Source: Gracilariopsis chorda | Lineage: Eukaryota > Rhodophyta > Florideophyceae > Gracilariales > Gracilariaceae | NCBI GenBank assembly: GCA_003194525.1 | Contig: NBIV01000142.1 | Location: forward strand, 62,001 to 126,000 | Length of the DNA: 64,000 nucleotides | Direction: 5' to 3' | Shown: piece by piece, positions 11,368-59,322 of the stretch | How positions within the stretch are numbered: position 1 is the stretch's first letter | How the letters are laid out: each line of letters begins with the position of its first letter | Program-made: the position numbers and the translations under genes | The notes under the pieces: generated by a model | Told to the model about the DNA's origin: nothing | Seen by the model: the letters and a program-made list of their open reading frames with translations, nothing else | Database searches by the model: none

Positions 11368-11649
11368 AGTATGGAGCGACTCACAAAAGAAGTTGTGCTA
11401 GCCAAATATCAATCCGTAGAGCACGATGCTACCACTGTCGGTAGATGGCTAACATCTCCGTTCTCATGGAAAAGCTTCAGCCAGATTCTTTATGTACGTA
11501 CTGTGCCCAGACAAACGTCTGATAAGATGAAAGACGCTTGATACTATTTTCGTTGCAGAGCAAGGAACCATTCAACGAAAACATCATATCAAGTTCCTAC
11601 CGTGACATTTACGTCATCACAAAATCTCTCACCACTTTGTCCAAGCAAT

Positions 11650-12108
11650 TTTGTCCTACTTAAACGTGAGACAAACGTGCTTACGCAATTTCGTCTAACC
11701 TAAGGTCAGAAAATTGAGTTTCATAGCACAAACAGGATCATATGACATAACTCCTGTCGAGGAGATCTACGTGAAGGTCATGGATAGTGCTTTAGAGAGA
11801 TTGTTTTGCGTATGATTGCAAGTGTAGCACTATATCCTAAGTCCATACGTTCCGTTTTATACGAGCAAAGAGAGAAAATACTTCTCTACCCAACTAGAGG
11901 AAGAGTTGCAACACCCACAGTACACCTTCAACATGCAGTAATCACTTGCTTACACTGATAGCATTTATCTCCATCTGGATTTAGCTTCATACACTTCACG
12001 TTTTGCCTACCAAATGCGCCATGAAGACAAAAATTCATAACACGAAGCATCTAAGCAACAGATGTACCTCCTAGACCGCTGTGACAATATCACTTGCGAT
12101 GAGTAGCG
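11650..12108. repeat. Left member of direct repeat pair flanking the LINE
   Basis: About 455 bp match 17,498-17,960 in the same orientation, at roughly 85% by eye. Shared blocks include TCGTCTAACCTAAGGTCAG, GCAAGTGTAGCA and ACGTTTTGCCTACCA. The two copies sit immediately either side of the LINE. They could be LTRs of a copia-like element or two members of a dispersed repeat family. Confidence 0.75.
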
Positions 12109-12140: not shown

Positions 12141-14413
12141 CAGTTTATTGTTCTCACTTTCCCAGATGGGTGGGCAGCAGACTACACAAAGTACTATATG
12201 CTTGTCGAAACAATCGGGGCATCTAAGTCCCCTGAGGTAGTATGAGTCACACCTGGTAGGTTTGCCGAAAGAAGCCTGCCGGGCTCGGGGCCGTCTGACT
12301 GCGGAAGCTTTCCAAGTCTTCTCGATTGATTTGTTTTCCAATTCATGTACCGGATGTCGTGGGGAGCGTTGATTGAAAGGGGTGGAGGAGGGTAACCAAG
12401 GTGGGGCAGTAGAGGGAAATCAGAGTCGGCATCCCAGTACGGTGCTGCAACTGCTGCTTTCGTCCCATCTGGTTCCAACTCCAGCTTAACCAAATAGACG
12501 ATCTTCAGCCTTGACGTGGCGGTTTGGCTGCCTTAGCTTAGTTGGACAACGATGTGGCTAGTGCCCTAATGAAGGTCACGAAGCGCCAAGCACTTCTCCA
12601 AAACTTCAGATGCATTGCTTTCCAAGGAAGTGGTCCACGATTTTTGATCTAATACACGACAGAGCTCAGGCACAAGGGGCCATAGCGCATCTGTGCGGAC
12701 TGGGAGCTTTCCAAGGTACCAAAGGACGCCTTGGTGCAATGCCTTACGTGACAACGTGCGAGAGGAGATCAGCGGAGCGAGAGTGGTCCATAACACCGGT
12801 GTGGCACGAGCCCTTCCCATATTCGCTAGATTAAATTCTTCCATATACAACTTCTGCTTCATGACACTCTTGAAAGCAAGTGGATCATCCACATATAACG
12901 GTAATTCCAAGTTTTCCAGCATCGATCATACGGCGGGTATATTCCTGACAGTCAACCAGGGACGAATAGCAAGTGCAACGATTTCAGCGCAGCGAGCGGA
13001 CTGTCCACGTTCCTTGATTGATACCAGATGGCGAAAGCGGAACCTTGCAGCAAGGGCGGCACTATGTACGGCTCAACGCACTTCAAGTGAAGGTACTTTT
13101 GTCAGTGGACGAGAGCGATCGGTGTGGTTGATTCCAACCTTAGCTCCCAGGATCCATGAGTGCACTTCCAATTCCAGCTTCAGCGATGCTTCCAAATTTT
13201 CTGCAGAGATGGGCTGCAATGGGAGGCAGTACTCAAACAGGGGCAGGATCTTGAGCTTCACGATCCTAACCTTGCTGAGTACAGATAGCGGAGCATCCAC
13301 TGTAACTCGTCGAATACGGTATAGCGCGACTCTAGCCGCATTGAGCCTCTCCAAGAGCCTGTGGGCGGCAGGCCCAGAGGTTGGGAACGAGAAACCACGG
13401 TGACCGAAGATGTACTGGACGCCAAGGTACTCTTCTCCAATAAAGAAATCTTCATTAACAGCAGATCTGACTATGTAGGACTTTGAGGCATTCCAATTCA
13501 TTTCCATGATGGATGCCCACGAAGCGCCGCAGCGTAGCTGAGAGGCTAAGGCTGCCTGATCTATAGCAAGCAATAGCACGTCTTCAGCAAAGCAGCTTGT
13601 GGCACTCCTCGGAATTCTGTTGAGGAACTCCAGAAACGTGTCCATGAATATGTTGAAGAGCGTTGGGTTTAGTGGGTCTCCTTGCAGTACACCCAGGACC
13701 ATAACAGCCACAACTCCAGAGACTTGACGTAAAGTCTTGATCCGTACTGGCATCAAACGCGCCGGTAGCATACGAGAAGTGTCATCCGGGAGTCGAGCTG
13801 TACATATATCCAGCAACTTCTCGCGAAGTACTGAGTCATAGGCGCTCTTCAAGTCGAAGAAACCGGCGTTAGAGAATCCATGGCGGAGGGAGTGAGCGGC
13901 AAACGCTGCAGCTAATTCAGTGTTGGAGCGCTGGATAAAGCCCCACTGATTGCGGTGAAAATGGTAGAGCTCCCCAATGCGGTAATGGAGAGCTTTGGAG
14001 ATGACCTTACGCAGAACCAAAAGAAGGGTAATCGTTCTGTAGTTCGAAGGGAGAGTTGGGTCCCTCTTTTTGAAGATAGGAGCCACGAATCCAGAGCGGA
14101 GGATTCGAGGGGCGTATGAGACGCGTCCCACTGCTCTCCAGAGTTCCAATAGTGCCGAGGCGATCAGGTTGGTCTCCAGCCTTAGCACCTCGAGCGGAAT
14201 GAAGTCTGGACCAGGAGCCTTCTTCTTCTTTCCACACGTGATAGCTCGGACAATAAGATCCTTGAAAGAGGGTGATACGTCAAATTTCCCCACCCGAACT
14301 TCTAAGGCTTCTTCAGGTTTAGTAGACTGTAGGTACCTTGTGAAGTCATCTGCGGCGAGTTTCTCAGGCGCAGAAGTATCTTCTACCAGCTCTAGCCTCT
14401 TCAGCTTTGGCAT
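12120..14413 (-). pseudogene. LINE ORF2: reverse transcriptase and C-terminal knuckle
   Basis: The long open part is 13,073-14,413 (446 codons). It shows the LINE RT blocks: KAPGPDFIP near 14,210, PIFKKRDPT, SNYRTITLL, the first catalytic Asp in FFDLKSAYDS near 13,850, and QGDPLNP near 13,670. The YxDD box reads FAED at 13,580-13,591. One catalytic Asp is therefore Glu, which should impair activity. Reading continues with frame changes through 12,566-12,922 to a Cys/His motif (CPDC...H...C) near 12,190-12,240, the usual ORF2 C-terminal knuckle. The RT is in the same frame as the endonuclease and is separated from it only by TAA at 14,450. Confidence 0.88.
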
Positions 14414-14449
14414 TAAGTCATTTGGTGCACCTTTTTCGAGTTCATCCCG

Positions 14450-15466
14450 TTATTGATCCAGCAGCCTGCGGCGATTCCTCCGGAGATTCTGCTTGATAGT
14501 GCGATCAATAGCCTTCACTTGAGCTCTTACGTCGACAGATTTTGGCTTCTTGAGAATTCGATACCTTTCATTAGCTAGAACGTCTCGTTCCCTGGTCCAA
14601 CCAGGTCTGTAACGCGGTGGCTTTGGGGAGAGATTTCCTAACCAAGGCCGCAGGATGTCCGTTGAGAGCTTCATGGTGGCAGCTTCGAGGGAGTCAGGTG
14701 ATTCTGCCTCTTTGAGCTGTGTAATGGCGGACGGTAGATGCTTGGAGTAGGATCTTGCAGCATGTTTTTGTATCCGATGGTTGGATAATAGGGTTTGAGA
14801 TAGCCTATTAACAAGCATGGCGGAGGTGGTCAAAGGGAACGAAGGAATGACCGGTAGGTGGTCTGAAGGCCAAGAACCTCCCAAAGTTTGTGGCATCGAC
14901 TGTGCGAGTCTTCGAACAAGAAACATGTCTACGACACTAGATCCACGGTGCGGAACAAAGGTTGGCGAGAGCGGCACCAGAACCTTGAACTTGGTCTTCA
15001 TTATCCAATTGTAGAGGCGAGTGCCTTGCGGGGTATTCAGCGTGTCCCAGCGACTGTTCCGTGCATTAAAGTCCTCTAGTGTAACATTACCACGAGCGAG
15101 CCTTGTGATGTCGAAGAACAAGTTCTTCATAACTTCGGCCGACGCCTGCGGCTTGATATAAACGGGTACCAGATTGACGGAGTTGAGAGAGCCAGCCAGT
15201 ATCTGGTAAAAGTTGTTGCATATAGAATCAAGTCTCTTGAAAGCGCCATATTCCTTATAGAATACTGCGACGCCCCCACCAAGGCGTAAGCGATTCGGTA
15301 AAGAGTAGGTATCCGTCGAGTCACAGAACAGCCACTCGTCTTCTACGAACCTTCCAGCTAACCAAGTTTCGGTGATGCAGACAAGGTCCGACATATTCAG
15401 CAGCGTCTTAATGCTGCCGAGTTTGGGCGTGATGCACCCATTGATGTTGAAGGCTGTGACGATCAT
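14450..15466 (-). pseudogene. LINE ORF2: APE-type endonuclease domain
   Basis: This is a 338-codon frame with the apurinic endonuclease fold that nicks target DNA for target-primed reverse transcription. It starts MIVTAFNINGC, has the catalytic Glu in CITETWL near residue 34, LEDFNARNSRWD where the family has GDFNAR, VVDMFL, and the terminal SDHLPV His. The Gly-to-Glu change next to the DFN motif is unusual. Its ATG overlaps the ORF1 stop in the tetranucleotide ATGA, a layout used by some LINEs for termination-reinitiation. An in-frame TAA at 14,450 splits it from the RT. Confidence 0.87.
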
Positions 15467-16879
15467 TGGTCGGAGCCGCCAGGGCGTGCCGGCGAGATGT
15501 CGTTAGATGGTGAGTTTTCCTGGCTTCCCGGTTCCGGTTGAGGTGGCTGTGTTCCATAAGAAGCGTCATGAGCCTCGCTGCGAATGGAGGAAGCCGGAGA
15601 GTCTAGCTCGAGGGACTGGTGAGAGTCCTTGAGCCCTTGAGCTTGCCTACAGTACCAAGACTTTGCAGCTGGCGACCTAGAGTGCAGCGCACACCAGTTC
15701 CGGCGTCTATAGCATGACTTGGCGCGCACCTCTTTGTTGGCGGCATTCGACTTTGACCCAGTCGGCTCATAGCTGTAGAGGTGGCGGTGGCGTAGAATAG
15801 CCATTGTTGATACCAGCCTGATCACAAGCAAGGGTTGACATATGACTTCCAATATATTATTACCAATGAAAAAGAGACTAATGACAGCCCACATGGGGAG
15901 TGAAAGAAATAGGGCTTTCCTTAGGGCTCCAAGAGGGCCTCTAGGAACATTTACAAAATATACAGTCAGGAGGCTAGGGCGGGGCTTCTGCTGAGGGCAA
16001 GAGAACTGGGCATCAATTAGGTCCTTCTTTGTTTGGGCATTCTTTGCCTTGGTCTGCTCAGAAATGGTGTCCATTGCAGGCTTAACGGCGATTTCCGCCC
16101 AAGATAGTTTAGCAGAACTGACTGCCTTGGGCGCATAGATCTTACGTTTTAGTGCGCCCTTGTTCGAGTTCTTGTCGGGTACGGGTGGTTCCGAATCCTT
16201 CAAGTGCTCGAGCGGAGGTGTAGCTTCACTGGGCGAGGGTGATTCCATTTTCAGTGAGGTTTCCAGTGGTCCAGTCTTCTCAGCGGATGGAGTCCTGTCG
16301 GGCTTCTTCTTCTCGGGCTTCTTCTTCTTCGTAGAGGTGATGTGGGCTTTTAGGGCTATGATGTCCTCTTGCAGATCTGAGATCGTGTCCATGAACTGAG
16401 CGCACTGCAGTTGCAAAGTCTGGTTCTCGGTCTTGAGTTCAACGTACGACTTCTTCTTGACTCTCACCACAGACTCGAGCTGAAAAATGTCAGGGGTGGG
16501 AAAGCGCGTAGTTGGCGAGTGCGCCTCCGCTTCCTTGCACGGTAAAGTGGGCTGCTTCAGACCATTAAGGTCGGGGGCTTTCTCGGGTGGATACGAGAGT
16601 TTCAGTAGAAGGAAGCTCAAGGGCTTTCGCGCTTGAAGTGGGGTAGAAGGACCCCCCCAGAGAAAGAGCTTTCGGAAGAGCGGCCTGAGGCGCCTCTGAG
16701 TCAGTGGGGACACACGTCTCAGCAAGGAGAGCATCCAGCTTTCCGCAAGTGACTTTGCGCTGGTATATACGGCACTTAGCCATTAAGCGGCCTCTGGAGG
16801 ATCTGTTCAGAGCCAACAAGTTCAGCTTCTTACAATAAGGGCAGCACAATAGAGCCTTCTTCTTCATGAACACTTCCAC
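15463..16879 (-). pseudogene. LINE ORF1: nucleic-acid-binding coiled-coil protein
   Basis: ORF1 begins at an ATG at 16,879 with a Cys-rich motif (CCPYCKKLNLL, then C and C about 25 residues on) that looks like a zinc-binding N-terminus. After a frameshift at the run of seven C (G on the coding strand) near 16,650-16,656, reading continues in the frame ending at 15,463. That frame contains a coiled-coil segment (ELKTENQTLQLQCAQ) near 16,430, a Lys/Pro-rich linker and a Ser/Pro/Gln-rich tail. ORF1 proteins coat LINE RNA. The homopolymer frameshift could be real decay or a sequencing error. Confidence 0.75.
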
Positions 16880-17497
16880 AAAGGCTCTCTTTCTTGTTCG
16901 GGGCGATGGGGCCCCTGAGTCTTCTCAGCCATCAAAGACGATGTGTCCACCATTCGTAGCCATACTTGGAAACGAAAAGGCGGCGGAATAGCCTGGGGAG
17001 ATACGAGATTGCGGGGTACACGCTCAGTGGTTGGCTAGAGCAGTACACGTGGCTGGAAGCTCGCTGGAATGTGGCGGCGGTGGCGGCGAAGACGACGGAG
17101 ACGAACGCAGGCTTGAGGAAGACGGAGCGGATTCCACAAAGAAAACGACAACAGCACCCAGCCAGGAAGCAAATGGAGCGATATAATACGGTACAACGGT
17201 AAAGCGGATCGGTACGCACCGGAAGAGATACTTTGCTGGAGAGGCGCACAAGGTTGACGGGTAGACCGGCGCCCACGAAGGCGTCGAAACGTGGGGTTCG
17301 CGCGGGTAGCGCAAACCCGAAAATCGGTGTAGCGCACGGGCAAGCCGTGCAATGCGCACGGAGGCAGTGTGAGCGGACGCACCGGTAGCAAGATGTCTGG
17401 AACACAACTACCAAAAGTGACCACCGTCTAGGACAGATTTAGGAGGGGAGTTTGGCTGGGGCAGTACATCTTTTACAAGACAACGAAGGTGCCCTTT

Positions 17498-17960
17498 GTT
17501 TCCTACTTCAACGTAAGACAAACTTGCACACGCAAGTTCGTCTAACCTAAGGTCAGAAAACCGAGTTTCATAGCACAACCAGTACCATATGATATAAATC
17601 CTATCGAGAAGATCTACGTGAAGTTCATGAATAGTGCTTTAGAGAGATGGTTTTGGCCATGTTTGCAAGTGTAGCAATATATCCTACGTCCATATGTTCC
17701 GTTTTACACTAGCAAAGAGAGAACATACTCCTCGAGCCTACTACGCGAATAGTTGTAACACCCACGGTACATCTCTAACACGCGATAATCACTTGCTTAC
17801 ACTGAAAGCTTTTATTTTAATCTGGATTTAGCTTCATATACTTGACGTTTTGCCTACCATATGCGCCATGAACACAAAACATTCATAACGCGAAGCACCT
17901 AAGCGACAGATGTACCTTCTAGATCGCTATGACAGTATGCACTTGTCATACGTAGCCAAT
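17498..17960. repeat. Right member of direct repeat pair flanking the LINE
   Basis: This is the partner of 11,650-12,108, in the same orientation, with many scattered substitutions. It abuts the LINE 5' region on one side and a Tc1 remnant on the other. No coding frame is seen in it. Confidence 0.75.
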
Positions 17961-20432: not shown

Positions 20433-21326
20433 CCATACCCAGTTTACGTCAAAGTTCTTTCAAGACCTCCGTCGTATTCCCGAGGTTCGAAATATTTTCG
20501 TCACAAAATACCACCCGCTGGGCAATGGCAACTAGAATTATTTAATTCTACGATGCTGAAAGCATTAGATTTCTATGTTACATGTCATCCTAAAGGCTGG
20601 GATCGGTATACTGATGCGAATACGTATGCCAATAATACCCAGGTACAATTACATCGTTTTCAACTTTTGAGTTGGTGCTGTCGCGACGCTCACCCCCAGT
20701 CGTCGCTCTTACTACGAGTGGTGCTCTGGTAAGGCATCATAGGCCTAGCAGGACTTGAAGTCGACTGGTAGACAATTTGATGATAAGTTACAATAAAGAT
20801 GATTTCCACTAGTTGTGTTTCCTGAGAGCTAAGAGGGGCGCCACTTATAGGTCACCTACATTAACATGAAAGGTCATTGGTCCCTTTTCAAGGGTCGTAT
20901 TCACTTAGCACGCGCATGTGCGTGTGTGCTGGCAAACTGAGCGCTTTCGACGGTCAGGGAGTGCTGCCAAAGGCCAAGACCATTGCTTCTGTTCATCACT
21001 CAATTGTCTCTGAAAAGATGAGGTTCGCAATAGGTAGATTGTTAAATAAGAAAGACCGGAACAGAGTGTATGAAAGGCCTAGACGTCAAACACGCCCTGC
21101 TTGTTACGAAAAACCCATTGATTGATCGGATATCTCAGTACACCAGTAGCTAGAAACTTTGTTAAAGCCTTGCAGGGTTTTGGGTTGCTCAACCTATCTG
21201 CTGGGTTCTATTCTCGGCTGATGCGTCAAATACCAGAAATGTCCAATCATTCGTATGATTCTTGTGGGACGTTATCTTTAGTCATGATACGTTTTCTGTC
21301 ATAATGGAGTTCTTGACGAGGGTATC
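20433..21326. other. No recognisable gene
   Basis: The small plus-strand frames here (for example 20,343-20,732 and 20,877-21,125) have no family signature. The second is rich in Lys/Arg near its end but too short to interpret. The stretch lies between repeat R1 and element X1. Confidence 0.4.
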
Positions 21327-21877
21327 TGTGAGTGTCATTTTGCACGAGTAAACGACACCGGACGACGACAGTCCTTCATATGCCCCCTTCTTAGCTAAAA
21401 GAGGACAATAAATGGGTTCGTAGCTCGAGAGTACCAGCACAGGCGTGCAATGCCAATGTAGTGAATAGGGACAAACCATGACAAAGAACCAAGAGGCAAG
21501 GTAGAAAGAAAACCCGGTAGTGACCGCAAAACACAACGAGCGCCAAAGCCCGGGACAATGTAGCAAAGAGACTACACCAGCGGATGACCTACGCGATCAA
21601 AACCTTAGATCTAGCGTAGTGCTGATGACTACTCCCAATATAGCACCACGGCCAACACGTACGACCAAGACTTTAGGTCTAGTACGCGGCCGAAGTGCAC
21701 CGTGCCACAGATGATAAGCCCAAACAAGGGCGGTGTTAGTACAAGTACGTGTCAAGGTGCGGGAGACCAAGCCGCACTAAGTGGAAGGGTAGGTGGGGAT
21801 AAGTGTGGTTGATGGCAGAGAGGAGCCGACTGCTCTAAGAGAAGGTGGGGGTTGCCAAAGAGAGGAGAAATGGTCTG

Positions 21878-21915
21878 GCCCGAGTTGGCTTGGAGGCCAC
21901 CGAACTCGGGCTTTT
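21878..21915 (+). terminator. Hairpin followed by TTTT in X1
   Basis: GCCCGAGTT (21,878-21,886) pairs perfectly with AACTCGGGC (21,903-21,911) and is followed at once by TTTT. The same structure is in X2 at 57,464-57,501, including the loop. It looks like an intrinsic or Pol III-type terminator, but function in a eukaryotic element is inferred, not shown. It could equally be an RNA packaging or stability hairpin. Confidence 0.4.
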
Positions 21916-22060
21916 GTAGACAATCGTTCTATATGAATACCCTCTAGTTTCGCATACTAAGTTTAAGTAACAACCCATAATAACCTGTTATGGGACACAT
22001 CCTTGCCATGACGGACCAGCTTGGCAAAAGGTATTATACCTCTTAGGGTATTTTGTTGTC

Positions 22061-22068
22061 TATATAAT
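22061..22068 (+). promoter_or_regulatory. TATA box of the X1 ORF
   Basis: TATATAAT lies about 53 bp before the ATG at 22,121. X2 has TATATAG at 57,647, 54 bp before its ATG, in otherwise matching sequence. The conserved spacing supports a real core promoter. Confidence 0.6.
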
Positions 22069-22120
22069 ATCTTGTGAAGGCACCAGATAATTCCAGCAAC
22101 ACTGTTCCAGCCACCTCACC

Positions 22121-22528
22121 ATGCCCAGGCCAGACGCAACCGCCATCATTTGCAATATTTCTGAGGATTCCAGTTCCTCTATTCCATACTGTGACCTCGT
22201 CGAGGTGGAAGCCGAAGAAGAAAGTGCGCCGTCACCTTCGTGGACCGCACAGATGGCGACCGAAACACTTCCTGATAATGTTGACGGCTTTGGGTTTTCT
22301 TCATCTTTACTGCTCGAACTAGAGGACATCTTACGTCGTATTCCGGACAAAGAGTAGAAAATGAAAGACGTCCTTACCACTCTGCATGATCTCATATCCC
22401 AAGCGCCAACATTGTATGTGCGCGGACTGATGCATGGGGCAGTATTTGCGTCAAACTGCCATTGCCTGCAGAATCATACTCCTCTTCATTCCTTCCTCCC
22501 CCTTATACACCAGCGTCTTACTAAGTAA
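22121..22528 (+). pseudogene. Small acidic protein of element X (X1 copy, interrupted)
   Basis: It begins with an ATG at the same point in the element as the X2 protein. The start is similar (MPRP..., ISEDSS versus MPKH..., ISDDSS). An acidic Ser/Glu-rich region follows, then a helical tail. A TAG at 22,355 interrupts it, but the frame continues with LYVRGLMHGAVFA. That matches LYIQGILEGMVFV in X2, so the two are homologous over their whole length. Stop at 22,526. The function is unknown. The layout (TATA, short leader, ORF) suggests the element expresses it. I do not recognise the family. Confidence 0.6.
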
Positions 22529-22556
22529 ACACTTCTGCTGTTCCGTGCATATGTTG

Positions 22557-23320
22557 TCATACTGTTTTCCTTCCTGGGTAGCCGTGTTGGACACATTTAT
22601 AGGTGTGGTTGTCTGATTTGGGGTTTGCTTGGATTTCAGGCGGAGCTCCGTTTCCGTCGGCGGGTTTGGCCGGTTTTGGTTTAGCGCGTCGTCTATTCGG
22701 CACGAACGACGACACCGCCTTCGCATGCTTTGCAGAACCAGTAACAGCCGGACGCACGGACAGCAACGCTTGCATACTGGCATGTAGACGATTGTTGACA
22801 TGACAATGAAACAACCATAGGCCAGTATTATCCGGCACAATCTCCACCACAGCAGTGGAGCCCGGTAACAGAAGTATCGAATCCACATGCTCACCTCCAG
22901 CCGTAACGCCCACCAAGCCATGCACATGCGCGGTAGGAAAATCGACTTCATTGTCCATCGTACCATGGTACAACCCGGTGCGCCACCCCTCCTGCATTTC
23001 AAACGCCGACAGTGGTGACGCGGAAGCGCAGCGCCATCACCTGGCGCAGACGCGTGAGCAAGGCATTTATACCGACATGTTGCAAGCCATTAGGTGGAAT
23101 GCAATGGGAACATGTGAGCGGCTGCAAAGCGCTGCGGGGCGCGTAGAACGACGACGAGCAAATCGCCAACGGCGGCGCGGAGCACGGGGCCGATTAAGGC
23201 CAGGTGATGTTCATGGCGACGGCGGGTGATGCGCACTGTGAAGGGGGGCGTGTACTCACGGAACACGAGCTTGTGGTACACGAAAGTAGGTGTGAAAGGG
23301 AGCGCGGACAGCGGTTTCAC
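22557..23320 (-). pseudogene. Multicopper oxidase fragment (ferroxidase/ceruloplasmin type)
   Basis: Two overlapping frames give C-terminal cupredoxin domains. In 23,090-23,320 the block VFREYTPPFTV and LIGPVLRAAVGDLLVVV matches a domain start of ceruloplasmin-like ferroxidases. In 22,557-22,997 HVHGLVGV, VPDNTGLWLFHCHV and LHASMQALLSV give the terminal domain with the HxH and HCH copper ligands. The usual DH after HCHV is NR here, so one type 1 ligand seems lost. A frameshift joins the pieces. Only about one domain is present and there is no signal peptide, so this is a captured gene piece inside X1, not a resident gene. The tail after 22,830 is Lys/Pro-rich and unrelated. Confidence 0.78.
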
Positions 23321-23541
23321 ACCGACGAACAGACGTTGACCGGCGTAGAACGGAGCTGCTGTGCAACGGTCGATGTGGCAGGGGCGCGCTTTGCAGCGAA
23401 GCGCACATCTGCTGAGGCGGAGGCGCCTGGGGTGGAAGCGGCGAGAGGGGGTTGGCCCTTAAAATGAGATCGAATCTCATAGGGACTCCACCCCCTCCCA
23501 GTCTTTTCCACTTAGGGCAACAGATGGGGGGGAATCCCTGA
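23317..23541 (-). repeat. Right end of X1 with constant leader frame
   Basis: About 135 bp (23,405-23,543) are nearly identical to the right end of X2. On the minus strand they open a frame starting MEKTGRGWSPYEI, only about 30 bp inside the end. The segment contains a 7-bp palindrome, ATGAGAT-CGA-ATCTCAT (loop TGA in X2), and a run of seven G next to the end. In X1 the frame runs to a stop at 23,317. Confidence 0.75.
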
Positions 23542-23759
23542 CAGTATCAAAAGCGATTTGCTGTCAGTTAGCAAGCATAACTTAACCTTCCGCATCACAA
23601 TGCTCTGCAAGTTGTGACGAATGACATATGCGGCATCCAAACCATTGGCTTACGCATAAATCTACGTTTCTTCCACGCTGCGGACAACTCCTTTTGACGT
23701 GTATGAGAGATATTGAAGAATAGTACAACGGCTGTTATTGTCGCATAGCGTCACAATGT

Positions 23760-43184: not shown

Positions 43185-43699
43185 AACAATAAAGGTGTGC
43201 AGTTTTATTACATGTGTCATAACTTAATTCGTGTGCTTAAACCTATTTCACTGTATGATTCAAATTTGTACTCTGTATGAAACGGAACTGCTTCAAACAC
43301 ATACCACTGTCGTTTTGGGCACCCGTTTTGCCCTTGTGCAAGCGTGACTAGTGTCATGCTTGCACCTTTGAAACGCCTTTATTAGCAGTCGGGTGGGTGT
43401 GATTAAAGGAGTTTCACGCACTGTATAAGAAAGTTTGGTCTTAATTAAAAACCTCTAATGAAGACAATTGAGACCGTGCGCCTGCAACATATGGACGAAG
43501 ATGGGATGAATCTTCACAAATGAGTCAGCATTTATTTCACGCCATCTTTCAAAAAGGTAAAAGCGTTGAAAGGTCTATGCCTGTTCCTTTTCCGTGAGAT
43601 CTGGAGTATTAATCTCCGAAGGGCTACCAGTACAACCGTCAGCCCCATCTCGTGATGGCAGCATATTCCGACTTCACGAGGACTGCTTGTTGTGGTAGA

Positions 43700-44832
43700 G
43701 CGTACTCCCTCGGAGTGGTCGTTGGAGCACTCTGGAGACGCCGCCATCGAGCAATGCAATCCACGTTCTCAAGCTCAGGAGTCTTGCTTTTCTGGCGTTC
43801 CGCGTTGAACGCAATATACGCGAACACGAACGAATACTGCAGCGTAGCAACCGCATATCGAGCAGTAGCTTTTCGTTCAACTTCAACGGTTATGGCGATC
43901 GAGATTGCTTCTTCAACTTTCGTTTTAATCGCCGTGACGTAGAGCGGATGATTGCTGCAGTGGCGTGGCCATCGCACCAGACAAATACAACCCGCAACCG
44001 CTACAGCGTCACCCCAATTCTCACGAACTGCCTCGTCCTGCGTCGAATGTTCTCTCCTGCGCGATGGGCGGATCTAGAAGTTCAGTTTGGCAAACAGCAC
44101 CCTCACCTAGCGGAAATATATTGGGAGGAAATAGAGGTTATGTGGAGTACACACCACTCTCTCATTTCTAGTATTCTGCGGTCGTTTATTGGGACACATG
44201 CGACCCATTACGCAGCTGCTATTCATGAGAAGTCACAGGGACTAACTAACTGTGTTGGCTTTATTGATGCTACCGTAATTGGAAGAGCAAGACCGAATGG
44301 GAACAAGTGCCAAAGTGTGGTGTACAATAGCCACAAGCGAAAGCACCCCTTGAAATATCAAGCTGTCAACACGCCTGACGGTTTGATACTACACAAATGT
44401 GGCCCCATAGAGGGCAGGCGTCATGAATGGACACTATTCGTGCGCAGTGAGCTCGACGAAGTACTGCCGTCAGTGCTACAGATTGGTGGTTCCAGGTATT
44501 GTGTGTATGGTGACTCAGGGTAAAATAGGCGTTGGTACCTCGAGGTGCCGTTTCAAGGTTTATCGTTGACAAAAGCGCAGAGGGCCTTCAATAAGGCCAT
44601 GTCCTCGACAAGGATAACAGTGGAGTGGATATTTAAGGATGTGAAAATGTACTTTTCTGTTGTAAGTTTCAAGCGAATGATGAAGCTACTAGAGAGTTCT
44701 ACCAGGTTTTTGTTTTTGTGCTGCATGTTTCTCAGCAACTGCCGCAACTGTGTTTATCCAAACCAGATATTGCAGTACTTTAACTGCCCCTCGCCATTAC
44801 TTGAGTCGTATCTTAGCGTGAACGTAGGATAG
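43700..44832 (+). pseudogene. PIF/Harbinger transposase 1 (DDE_4), one stop
   Basis: The frame is open from about 43,699 with coding character (FNFRFNRRDVERM) upstream of the first ATG at 43,948. It continues to 44,832 except for one TAA at 44,521. The DDE_4 core shows GFIDATVIGRARPNG (first Asp), YQAVNTPDGLI, GPIEGRRHEW, YGDSG (second Asp) and TRITVEWIFKDVK (Glu). The TAA sits where the family has Tyr after GDxA. It catalyses cut-and-paste with 3-bp TWA duplications. Its partner gene lies downstream on the opposite strand at 44,972-45,694, the usual convergent Harbinger layout. Terminal repeats of this copy were not found. Confidence 0.85.
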
Positions 44833-48415: not shown

Positions 48416-50068
48416 TTAGTCATTCTTCCTCGCCGAGATATTCTCAGCATTACATACTTTTAAACTACCGCAAACAGCTCGAGCACTTGCAGAAACACGG
48501 CGAGCTTCACGTGTCTCATTTAAACACAATCGACGTACGGCACGTTCAGATGCGAGGCTTTTCAGATGGCGCACTTCTGCTTCTGTTTCAGGCTCATTCC
48601 GACGACGTTTGCGTTCCATCAACACATCTAAAACTGCAGAGGCGGTAACATGGCCGCCATATTTTGTGTTGATCTTCACTGTTCCACTTTCTAGAACTGT
48701 TGCACCACCACCTGCCAAAGCCCTACTCTGACTGTCAAATGACTTCATTATCTCTTCCAAGTGTTCTTTAGAAGACCGGTCGCCTTCATTGTTAAACCTG
48801 CGTAGGGAAATAGCACTTGCCCGCCGAAGACTGTAGTTCCAGATTCCCATATTCTGGAAACCGCTCTGAATGTTTCGAAGTGAACACGAAACAGACAGAG
48901 CGTCCCAAACAATCCGAGCGATGTCAAATGCGTCAATTACCGTCTTGATCCGAGAAAGTTTGTGCAATTCACTGCGTATAGCGGCTTTATACGACAATAA
49001 GACTGAAACATCTAGGGGTTGGAGAATGTGAGACGTGTGTGCTGGAAGAGCGACGACAATGATTCTGTTGTCGCGAAGAATTTGCAAGCTCCTGAAATGT
49101 AAGTGACTTTTGTATCCGTCGAAGATAAGAAGAGAATACGTGCTGCTGTTTCGCTTGGCTCTGACTTCATCCACAAATCTGTTTGCCCAGTCGTGAAAGA
49201 TTCTTGTATCAACCCCCGGTGTTTCTCTTTGGTATAGGTGGCAAGGTGGCAGTAAGTCGTGAAGTGTTTCGTAGCTGCCTCTCTCCGATTTGCGGTAGTG
49301 AGCCTATTTTCCCCAGAACACAATGACCGGTTTGAGAGCTGAACCATCAGCACAAATAACTGGCATTACCGTGACGCGATCTCTTGCTCCTTTGACTTTG
49401 CTCACTTTCTGAATCAAACGGCCCCTATGCTCCTTACTCCCAACTGCTTTCTTCCCGCTCCTCCCAAGAATCTTTCCGAACGACGCCCCTGATTCATCAA
49501 TGTTGAACACCTGACTTGGATCTGTTATGCTGTACTTCTTCATCACGGCATTAAGAATTGCCATAAAACGCCCAATACTCTCTGCGGTAACGGCAGCGAC
49601 ACGGTTGTACTCTATACCTTGGATTGGTTGATACTTCAATTCATGCCGTTCACAGAACAGCCGGACCCATTTCTCGGATGGAAGGCCGTTCACGAAGCTG
49701 ATTTCTTGTTGGCGGTGAAGTGGAAGGGTCGAAATGTAATATGCCGCAAGATCAAGGAGGCAGGTCTTTGCTAGAGGTGTGTTGTTATTGGCGTACATTC
49801 GCACCATTTCTGCGATGTCATGTTCTTCATTGTCGGATAACACTTTTGGCCTCCCTGGTTTGTTCATTTTCAGACATATCTGTTCTGCGGATGTTGATAT
49901 GACATCGTTGGTTACGTTGAGCCATTTGATATAAGCATTTCGTATGCGATACCAAGGAATTCCATATTCCTCAGCAAGTTGATGGTAAGAACTTCCATGT
50001 GTGAATCTTTCAAACAACGCCTTCTGAAACCATTGATAGAGAGTGGGTGGACTGGAAGAAGAAGCCAT
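48416..50068 (-). pseudogene. pogo-like transposase (CENP-B/DDE_1), one stop
   Basis: This is a 551-codon frame with a single TAG at 49,304 (FWGK-stop-AHYRK). The N-terminus has a helix-turn-helix (SYHQLAEEYGIPWYRIRNAYIKW), then a CENP-B-type domain (EKWVRLFCERHEL). The DDE_1 core follows with catalytic Asps in VFNIDESGASFG, LLIFDGYKSHL and ILQPLDVSV. A Lys/Arg-rich tail with a Cys ends it. All three catalytic residues are kept. It would cut and paste at TA. It is nested in the giant Harbinger block; its own ends were not resolved. The related copy at 36.7 kb has lost two catalytic residues. Confidence 0.87.
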
Positions 50069-50853
50069 TGTGGTGTGCCGTTAGTTGGGACGAACGGAAC
50101 GATTTCACAGATTGCTGACCATTTCTACTCGCGAATTGGTTTCCGTTGTGGTTTTTTCGCGCTACATGTCTCTTCAGAAGATTTTGTTGAGATCGAGATT
50201 GAAGGAGGCAGTTAGGTTGGGGTTTATAGTCCGTTGAATTTATCGTAAAGCATATGAGCACTGCTTATGAATTTGGAAGGACCTGTCTTTCTCACACCAT
50301 ATCTTGTAAACTACGCATATGAATTTGCTTGCTTTTCGCCCATCGGGAGGCTTCGAGTCTTATAGTGTCCACACTATAATTTGAAAGGGATCTTCACATT
50401 TGTTTTACCATGGCTCGGACTTTTGTGACGGAGAATACGGCTCAGAGAGGCATGCAACACAGAAACCTGGCCTATCATCTTCATCTTTGATTTTAGTGAT
50501 TTAGACAGCTGGTGGCATTTGGTACCGAAGGGTTACCAGGCTGCCCCGCCTTTTTGCACCGGAGGATGACCTGCTTGCAGAAGTGCCACCGTCGCCACCA
50601 CATTCTATTTCCTGCATTTGCGACTCCCGCCGCGCCATACAAGAAAGTTCGCTCCAAGCTCAATCAAGACACCCGAGCAGAGCATTGTTCACAAAAATTC
50701 TCCTGCATTGTCAGGCGCTGATTAGAGCACATCTTCCGTCGTCGTGTTTCCACGGCTCGTACGTGATCCCTAACAATAGACACAACGTTATCCTCCTCTT
50801 CTAAGCTTTGCCAGAGTCTTAATGTGCAGCGACCTGCCTCTGATATGTGTACT

Positions 50854-56904: not shown

Positions 56905-57463
56905 TAACCAGGTGTGAGTGTCATTTTGCACGAGGAAACGACACCGGACGACGACAGTCCTTAATATGCCCCCTTCTTAGCTAAAAGAGGACAATAAATG
57001 GGTTCGTAGCTCGAGAGTACCAGCACAGGCGTGCAATGACAATGTAGTGAATAGGGAAAAACCGTGACAAAGAACCAAGAGGCAAGGTAGAAAGGAAACC
57101 CGGTAGTGACCGCAAAACACAACGAGCGCCAAAGCCCGGGACAATGTAGCAAAGAGACTACACCAGCGGATAACCTACGCGATCAAAACCTTAGATCTAG
57201 CGTAGTGCTGATGACTACTCCCAATATAGCACCACGGCCAACACGCGCGACCAAGACTTTAGGTCTAGTACGCGGCCGAAGTGCACCGTGCCACAGATGA
57301 TAAGCCCAAACAAGGGCGGTGTTAGTACAAGTACGTGTCAAGGTGCGGGAGACCAAGCCGCACTAAGTGAAAGGGTAGATGGGGATAAGTGTGGTTGATG
57401 GCAGGGAGGAGCCGACTGCTCTAAGAGAAGGTGGGGGTTGCCAAAGAGAGGAGAAGTGGTCTG

Positions 57464-57501
57464 GCCCGAGTTGGCTTGGAGGCCACCGAACTCGGGCTTT
57501 T
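57464..57501 (+). terminator. Hairpin followed by TTTT in X2
   Basis: GCCCGAGTT and AACTCGGGC (57,464-57,472; 57,489-57,497) with the same 16-base loop as X1, then TTTT. Conservation in both copies argues for function or recent common origin. Confidence 0.4.
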
Positions 57502-57646
57502 ATAGACAATCGTTCTATATGAATACCCTCTAGTTTCGCATACTAGGTCTAAGTAACAACTCATAACAATCGGTCATGGGACACTTCCTCGCCATGACGG
57601 ACCAGTTTGGCGAAAGGCATTGTACCTCCTAGGGTATTTTTGAGTC

Positions 57647-57653
57647 TATATAG
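57647..57653 (+). promoter_or_regulatory. TATA box of the X2 ORF
   Basis: TATATAG, 54 bp before the ATG at 57,707, in a segment conserved with X1. The leader CCAGCACCAGATGATTCCAG following it is also shared with few changes. Confidence 0.6.
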
Positions 57654-57706
57654 TACCTTGCTCCAGCACCAGATGATTCCAGCAACATTGTTCCAACCAC
57701 CCCACC

Positions 57707-58135
57707 ATGCCTAAACATCCACGTCCGAATGTCACCAGGCTTGTTCGAGAGATATCCGACGATTCGTCCCCGGAATCACCTTGTAAACGCAGTCGTTTCA
57801 TCGATGACGAAGCTTCCGAGGCCGGGCCTTCCACCGAAGAGGCGCTCTCAATTCAGGCAGAGTATGGTCTGATGCCTGAGGACAGCGCCATCAACCCATC
57901 TTACGATGTTGCCCAGGTTGGTGGCCTACTCCTGGCTCTAGCGGATGGTCATCAGAAAGTAGGTGAGCTGCAGCCTTCCCTTCAATATCGTTTGGAGCGC
58001 CTTCCACTTTTATATATACAAGGGATTCTCGAAGGAATGGTATTCGTGGCGCGGATTCGTCGGCGTCCCCTTGTGAGGGGTGTTATGCTAGCGGTGGCCA
58101 CAGCAATAGATGAAGAATTGCAGAGGGAGGACTAA
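57707..58135 (+). CDS. Small acidic protein of element X, intact copy, 142 aa
   Basis: An uninterrupted frame from ATG to TAA, placed as in X1 after a TATA box and a conserved leader. The first 50 residues are Ser/Asp/Glu-rich with a basic CKRSRF patch, possibly a nuclear signal (SSPESPCKRSRF). The second half is helical: VGGLLLALADGHQK, LERLPLLYIQGILEGMVFV, ending IDEELQRED. It is homologous to the interrupted X1 product, yet much more diverged than the flanking non-coding DNA. I do not recognise the family. It could be a Gag-like or regulatory protein of the element. Confidence 0.55.
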   Translation: MPKHPRPNVTRLVREISDDSSPESPCKRSRFIDDEASEAGPSTEEALSIQAEYGLMPEDSAINPSYDVAQVGGLLLALADGHQKVGELQPSLQYRLERLPLLYIQGILEGMVFVARIRRRPLVRGVMLAVATAIDEELQRED

Positions 58136-58154
58136 TATATGCTACCATCTTTCC

Positions 58155-59285
58155 TTATGATGTCAATAAACCGCTTTTTCTTGCGTGTATACGTTGAAAT
58201 AGAGATGCGGTACTGTGGATAGTGGCGGCGGTAGTGAGAATAGGAATAGATGCTGTTGGATATGGGGCAGAAGCTGCAATAATCTGATCGGATTGTGCGG
58301 TAGCCAGTGCGCTTTCGGTTTCCAGCTGCGATTCAGGCTTGTGTACGCCGTGCACGTCGGGAGTATGCGATAATTGAGGCATAACGGTAGCAACAGTATG
58401 CATAATTTGTTGTGCTGCGTGCGCGGGTTGATTTTGTGGATCGGCATCATGAATGAGGGTTTGCTGAGTATGGTCTGGTTCTGTAGCAGCAGGTTCCGCG
58501 TAGTCCATGGGTTGTTGCGAGGGCTGTTCGGCTACTTGTTGAATGGATTTTTGGGGCTGGGTCTTGACGGCTACAGTTTGTTGGGAAACAGCTTGAAGAT
58601 CATGCTGGAGACCGCCTGCAATGTCTTGCAGAGTGGAGTGCGGGGAGATGGAGTGGGGTTGTACATGTTCTGGATGATGAGTAGGGTGCTCATGTTCAAG
58701 TTGGTGCTCCACAGGCTGCTTTGAGCGACAAAACAAAGCGACAGGAGGGCGAGAGTACATACATGCACTAAAAACGGCTTCGCCAGCGCTTCACCTCCTA
58801 CGCTGGGTGGGCGAGCTGTTGGAAGTGATATCGCGTTCCGCGGCGGGCTTCCGATGTCTGACCAAGCCGGCGGGCACCTTGGTCTGGTAGTAGCTCATAT
58901 CGACGTTACGCACGGAAGCGGAGGCGGCACACTCGGCGGCGTCCGGTCGTGCAGAATGAACGGATGAGAAATCCATTCTGTCGAAGACGATGTCCTGCAC
59001 GGCGGCAGCGTCATTGAGAGGCACCAATTCTTCCTGCACGCTTCGCTTTTCGCCACACGATTGGCAAAGGCTGGCGCCGGAAGTGGGCGCCAGCACGGCG
59101 GCAGGCGCGACGGCGCATTGGGAGCATAGCGCGGTCACAACGGTGCGCGACACTATGGGGACGGCGCGGGCGCCGCGCCCATCTGCTGAGGCGGAGGCGC
59201 CTGGGGTGGAAGCGGCGAGAGGGGGTTGGCCCTTAAAATGAGATTGAATCTCATAGGGACTCCACCCCCTCCCAGTCTTTTCCAC
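58155..59285 (-). pseudogene. Cargo frame of X2: GATA-like zinc finger and Gln/His-rich tail
   Basis: The frame starts with the constant leader (MEKTGRGWSPYEI) at 59,285, passes a TGA at 58,791 and stays open to 58,155. Near 59,060-59,150 it has LCSQC, sixteen residues, then LCQSCGEK. This is close to the C-x2-C-x17-C-x2-C spacing of GATA fingers, including the LCxxCG ending, but the Trp-Arg loop is lost. After the TGA the sequence is Gln/His/Pro-rich (VEHQLEHEHPTHHPEHVQ). The start lies only 32 bp from the element end, so expression is doubtful. The zinc finger assignment is tentative. X1 carries an unrelated oxidase piece in the same place. Confidence 0.45.
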
Positions 59286-59322
59286 TTAGGGCAACAGTTG
59301 GGGGGGAATGCCTAACACCAGG

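Follow-up and report, generated by a model that had tools for sequence, protein, structure and literature searches.

Two units in the window, a 64,000-nucleotide stretch of the Gracilariopsis chorda genome, agree at their ends and differ in the middle, and the locus raises the question of what kind of element would keep constant ends around an interior that changes. Seven matches to the phycobilisome linker family, all seven scoring above its cut-off and with no stop in the matched part, also suggest a red alga. The initial annotation of this DNA described exact boundaries and perfect 5-bp duplications for both units, and these were verified: X1 is flanked by GTATC and X2 by CCAGG (coordinates in Table 1). 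On the window strand both units start with TGTGAGTGTC and they finish with ...TGACA (X1) and ...TAACA (X2). The two have 799 bp in common on the left, at 94.9% identity and at 98% over the first 600, and their final 143 bp on the right, at 96.5% identity, in agreement with the annotated lengths of about 600–800 and about 135 bp and with the annotated divergence of about 2% over the first 595 bp. Between the common ends, blastn yields no match. The description of the centres as unrelated was accurate insofar as they are blastn-negative and match different host genes, but from LTR position 795 X1 and X2 each encode a distant form of the same small protein. Homology of the two interiors as parts of one long LTR, which the annotation named as evidence against its own interpretation, was found for this small antisense ORF only. 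Two identities had been offered for the units: solo LTRs of more than 2 kb that acquired host sequence, or a Ginger-like, non-autonomous integrase-type DNA transposon that exchanges cargo between constant ends.

We searched the 91.3-Mb assembly (1081 contigs) with the two end sequences, as the annotation had proposed, and obtained at least 41 left-end and at least 40 right-end matches, counts that are lower bounds because only 40 candidates were scored in each search. The searches recovered full copies, with paired LTRs, gag-pol and a start resembling a primer-binding site (PBS) inside. LTRs paired on the same strand are mostly spaced 8.5–10 kb apart. On contig C157, two 2376-bp units are separated by 6565 bp containing a 2128-aa ORF, in which protease, reverse transcriptase (RT), RNase H and integrase follow one another in Gypsy order. 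In the ORF of copy L002 these four domains occupy residues 467–552, 1145–1300, 1390–1494 and 1602–1757; its rve core scores 30.4, slightly under the cut-off of 32.6, and the integrase zinc-binding domain exceeds its cut-off. The internal region is enclosed by direct LTRs with TG...CA ends, the PBS-like sequence TGGTACTCTCGAGGAGGGCC (TGG...) lies directly behind the 5' LTR, and a polypurine tract (PPT), GTGGGGGAG, abuts the 3' LTR. The gag-pol ORF is on the strand opposite to the one on which the LTR had initially been read, so that this orientation has to be reversed; in the coding sense the LTR runs TGTTAGG...CTCACA.

Both ends are present in 24 units, 9 of which adjoin an internal region and 15 of which do not. 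Perfect 5-bp duplications flank 12 of these 15, with one flank common to 4 of them; the duplication of L018 becomes perfect after a 2-bp shift of the end, that of L024 matches at 4 of 5 positions, and L006 is the remaining unit. For 13 further left ends, a right end of this kind is absent. Since X1 and X2 lack an internal region and each is bracketed by its duplication, we take them as solo LTRs. Judged by sequence, they are solo LTRs of one Ty3/Gypsy family, and the first of the two identities is thus the one that stood, since full copies consist of two LTRs around gag-pol and the interiors of the units match host sequence in part. We also noted tandem arrays (L033, L034, L037 and contig C506), in which internal sequence flanks one LTR on both sides or three LTRs lie in a row. 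Thirteen bases of the PBS-like sequence are repeated in each LTR (CTCGAGAGTACCA on the window strand, at 21424–21436 and 57010–57022), roughly 100 bp inside the PBS-side end.

Ginger elements are defined by a lone integrase-type transposase that is enclosed by terminal inverted repeats. A non-autonomous transposon of this type with exchangeable cargo could have the same TGT...ACA ends and 5-bp duplications, and L019, in which two LTRs form a palindrome flanked by TATAC duplications, resembles a unit with long inverted ends. However, the integrase of this family belongs, with RT, to a gag-pol ORF flanked by a pair of direct LTRs, next to a PBS-like start and a PPT, and inverted repeats of at least 60 bp were not found in the window. 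On these grounds Ginger-type membership was rejected, and we regard this interpretation as barely credible. Exchange of cargo between constant ends does hold, but it happens inside an LTR. The palindrome itself (L019:2711-4858, on contig C99) is 2148 bp long and 92% identical to its own reverse complement, and is apparently made of two ~1.07-kb LTRs of the X superfamily joined U3 to U3. Elements of other kinds also lie in the window: frames for a LINE-type reverse transcriptase and endonuclease (13073–16782, minus strand), flanked by two direct repeats of 300 bp with 85% identity (11649–11948 and 17496–17795), and DDE transposase-like frames (DDE_Tnp_4, DDE_1) at 43699–44523 (plus strand) and 48416–49303 (minus strand).

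In window orientation the LTR consists of four modules. M1 is a constant, PBS-side part of ~790 bp; M2, ~530 bp long, holds the ORF antisense to gag-pol; M3 is a swappable cassette of 0.75–0.94 kb; and M4 is a constant, PPT-side part of 143 bp, of which ~133 bp align in type D, one of the cassette types described below. We assume that the cassette is placed in U3.

Table 1 Predicted features of X1 and X2 (window coordinates; M1–M4, LTR modules).
Feature	Position	Strand	Remark
X1 target-site duplication GTATC, left	21322..21326	.	
X1 solo LTR, cassette type E	21327..23543	- (gag-pol sense)	2217 bp
X1 M1, constant PBS-side part; antisense TATA box at 22061	21327..22120	.	
X1 M2, antisense ORF, 78 aa then stop	22121..22357	+	
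X1 open frame with multicopper oxidase match	22557..22997	-	
X1 M3, multicopper oxidase gene fragment	22685..23379	-	C232 match
X1 M4, constant PPT-side end	23401..23543	.	
X1 target-site duplication GTATC, right	23544..23548	.	
X2 target-site duplication CCAGG, left	56908..56912	.	
X2 solo LTR, cassette type A	56913..59317	- (gag-pol sense)	2405 bp
X2 TATA box, 60 bp upstream of antisense ORF	57647..57652	+	
X2 M2, intact antisense ORF, 142 aa	57707..58135	+	
X2 AATAAA downstream of antisense ORF	58165..58170	+	by eye
X2 cassette part 2, host homeobox gene fragment	58222..58720	-	source C14, 97-98%
X2 cassette part 1, 3' part of B-box-like host gene and post-stop sequence	58714..59196	-	source C289, 96-97%
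X2 M4, constant PPT-side end	59175..59317	.	
X2 target-site duplication CCAGG, right	59318..59322	.	

The small protein encoded antisense in M2 recurs across the family. Of 38 LTR starts read, with two LTRs counted twice, 22 have the 142-aa ORF; other forms measure 135 aa (L009), 128 aa (L010) and 141 aa (L014), and that of X1 ends at 78 aa. L009 and L010 are related to X1 and have longer forms of its ORF. In the remaining 12 starts the ORF is absent, carries a frameshift or is truncated where the stretch ends. A genome search with the protein gave 129 matches, 35 of which span at least 140 of the 142 residues without a stop. The relationship between the X1 and X2 forms was found by tblastn of the X2 protein against the corresponding place in X1 (E 5.2e-4, 28%) and by hhalign, with one profile built from X1-type and L014-type forms and the other from X2-type forms (probability 94%, E 1.2e-7); the protein has no match in Pfam. 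Between the ORFs of X2 and L011, dS is 0.134 and dN 0.045. Ten recent X2-type copies have a pooled dN/dS of 0.79, which is near neutral and says little. Between X1-type and L014-type forms pN is 0.35–0.36 with saturated synonymous sites, and because of this saturation constraint on the protein is indicated and not measured. Together these comparisons suggest that the antisense protein is under long-term constraint, and our guess is that it might be a regulator.

We followed five types of cassette, A (the type of X2), B, C, D and E (the type of X1), and found host-gene matches in the M3 of four of them (A, B, D and E). The type E cassette matches a multicopper oxidase gene at C232, its putative source, in two segments (49163–49537 and 49819–50146, 91% each) within a 704-aa open frame, and the fragment in X1 is recognized by Pfam as PF07731 (E 1.3e-7). 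Type A joins fragments of two host genes, the 3' part of the B-box-like gene of C289 and a middle section of the homeobox gene of C14. The homeodomain of the latter has an E of 6.3e-11, and the B-box an E of 4.5e-4, which is under the Pfam cut-off; in X2 the B-box-like part overlaps the homeobox part at 58714–58720 and the constant end in its last 22 bp. Type D matches a Sel1-repeat gene at C45 over its start (88%; Sel1 E 1.5e-20) and, in a second piece of 113 bp, a gene-like open frame at C46 (92%) that is zinc-finger-like by eye. Type B consists of the mRNA of a zinc-finger gene at C22, which we take to be ZNF706-like, followed by a piece of C133, and the ORF that it places in the LTR matches zf-met2 (E 6.8e-14). 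Type C has more distant matches, at 71–73%. Related copies were found for the cassettes of L014 and L020, with no identified gene, and the relatives of L020 have recurring breakpoints. Compared between types, M3 sequences are 66–74% identical at a coverage of 0.67–0.82, values that come from forced global alignments.

Two candidates bearing on the oxidase fragment were rejected. The 170 bp present in L010 and missing from X1 are not an intron, being bordered by 7-bp direct repeats and lacking GT-AG. The X1-like piece on C24 (L042) was discarded as the source of X1, since it lies between inverted flanks. This piece (L042:642-1405; 764 bp, 94.5%) has flanks that are long and, by eye, inverted, and another transposon may therefore have captured the oxidase fragment.

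Host matches of this kind could also arise in the opposite direction, if the cassettes were simply the fast-evolving U3 of diverging subfamilies and pieces of LTR had come to lie in genes. Subfamilies of the crapaud element do differ in U3 (PMC10787394). Against this, the host open frames extend beyond the match, that of the homeobox gene in both directions and those of the Sel1 and B-box-like genes in one, the homeodomain and Sel1 repeats are known domains, and introns of the C22 gene are missing from the LTR. We therefore consider simple subfamily divergence very improbable.

The gene at C22 is interrupted by two introns with GT-AG borders (85 and 91 bp). The type B cassette, whose match to this gene spans 5' UTR, ORF and 3' UTR, lacks both exactly. 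This cassette clearly appears to have been copied from a spliced host mRNA. The evidence of exact intron loss comes from this one fragment. Six of the seven sourced fragments are in sense with gag-pol. We infer that host mRNAs were packaged and that RT switched templates onto them, and we hold it highly probable that the cassettes in the LTRs of X1 and X2 came about in this way and were later moved between element backgrounds. In LTR-mediated retroposition as already described, templates are switched at microsimilarities (PMC5408686).

A second route to the same LTRs would be capture at the DNA level, in which double-strand-break repair puts host DNA into a resident LTR and retrotransposition then spreads the altered copy. 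The C133 piece of type B would suit this route: it is antisense to an open frame, covering the start of the frame and upstream sequence, and therefore does not fit a plain sense mRNA. The joints between fragments are compatible with either process. At four of five joints examined the longest identical runs are 5, 6, 8 and 8 bases, with the M4 joint scored using X1 as a stand-in for the constant end, and the fifth, between M4 and Sel1 sequence in type D, has 63 bases without explanation. When five host sequences are joined at random, the mean number of shared bases is 0.70, and 0.65% of the joins reach 5 or more. This contrast is overstated because the control takes single random positions and the examined joints the best run in a window. 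Short matches of this sort would fit end joining equally well. The repeat-bounded deletion in the X1 oxidase fragment, which lacks intron borders, and the fact that intron loss is shown in a single case also lean towards DNA capture, whereas the exact absence of both introns from type B and the prevailing sense orientation speak against it. On balance we judge capture at the DNA level unlikely, and retain template switching onto host mRNAs as the origin of the cassettes.

Two copies combine a cassette with an M1 from another background. L012 has a type A cassette (96% to X2) beside an M1 that is 98% identical to types B, C and D and 91% to X2, and L007 has a type B cassette (96–97%) beside an M1 that is 96% identical to X2 and 88–89% to the other B copies. 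From these mosaic copies we conclude that cassettes moved between backgrounds. The internal regions read behind A, B, C and D share 98.1–100% identity with that of L002, a type D copy, over the aligned parts (for B, 1765 bp only), and that of a shorter-LTR copy, L001, is 91.6% identical to L002. Both cassettes are of one type in all 16 same-strand pairs lying 7–20 kb apart, three of which come from the array on C506. This count is based on 54 cassettes selected by hand (20 B, 16 D, 7 E, 6 A and 5 C), including partial ones such as C60, C529:14804, C144:56231 and C991:11195 and excluding host matches, shorter pieces and distant matches. One type per pair would follow from the copying of the LTR into both ends of an element, although local duplication would have the same result. 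On C506, C751 and C991, neighbouring type B cassettes are spaced ~9.9 kb apart in three of four cases and 8.9 kb in one, and type D and C neighbours 8.9 kb; from the wider spacing, some type B elements may hold ~1 kb more.

Template switching as proposed would proceed as follows. During reverse transcription, RT would leave the element RNA at a short match, continue on a host mRNA, in some cases pass on to a second host mRNA, and then return to element RNA. In LTR retroelements the LTR sequence is copied into both ends of the new element, and a single capture would for this reason alter both LTRs. Later jumps between element RNAs would shift whole cassettes across backgrounds, as the mosaic copies suggest, and recombination between LTRs would have left X1 and X2 solo, consistent with their duplications and missing internal region.

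Host-gene capture by LTR elements is mostly known as cargo between the LTRs. In the X family, types A, B, D and E match different host genes at the same site of the LTR, and the internal regions read behind A, B and D are at least 98% alike. The series allows RT jumps onto host mRNAs, change on the promoter side of the LTR and the duplicate spread of chimeric sequence to be studied. The antisense ORF conserved across the subfamilies is a second question, which is now testable. We can also imagine, although we are more inclined to doubt it than to believe it, that the capture slot in the LTR is kept, that host transcripts are written into it and cassettes shuffled beside an LTR-driven antisense gene, and that this turnover is adaptive. 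If so, a change of cassette would give a subfamily new regulatory sequence or a new host-silencing target.

LTR subfamily turnover and host-gene capture each have known precedent. Repeated capture in one slot of an LTR, beside a conserved antisense ORF, was not found described in the open-access literature searched, a body that leaves most subscription journals outside. The closest parallel to the turnover is crapaud of Podospora anserina, which has many LTR subfamilies in which the 5' half of the LTR (U3) varies and R/U5 is conserved, and for which recombination between co-packaged RNAs has been proposed (PMC10787394). Its variable U3 measures less than 200 bp, and the main text of the paper does not use the term 'host gene' (PMC10787394), whereas the cassettes of the X family measure 0.75–0.94 kb and match host genes, and the LTR holds an ORF as well. 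A variable U3 is also reported for insect ERVs (PMC12992720). Retrosat2 of rice resembles the X family in its very long LTRs and extra ORF (ORF0), but host-gene sequence in the LTR is not mentioned in the accessible part of that paper (PMC3485330). Retand, a plant Gypsy element, likewise conserves an accessory ORF that runs antisense to gag and pol; this ORF lies between pol and the 3' LTR, in contrast to the position inside the LTR seen here (PMC11963269). Other LTR retrotransposons carry host genes in numbers and are similar in this cargo, but in the available portions of their description no capture inside the LTR is described and the terms 'within LTR' and 'intron' are absent. In maize Bs1, the captured genes lie between the LTRs. 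LTR-mediated retroposition is similar in that host mRNA is joined to the element by template switching at microsimilarities (PMC5408686), and the X family differs in that the captured sequence lies inside the LTR, in one slot whose contents differ by subfamily.
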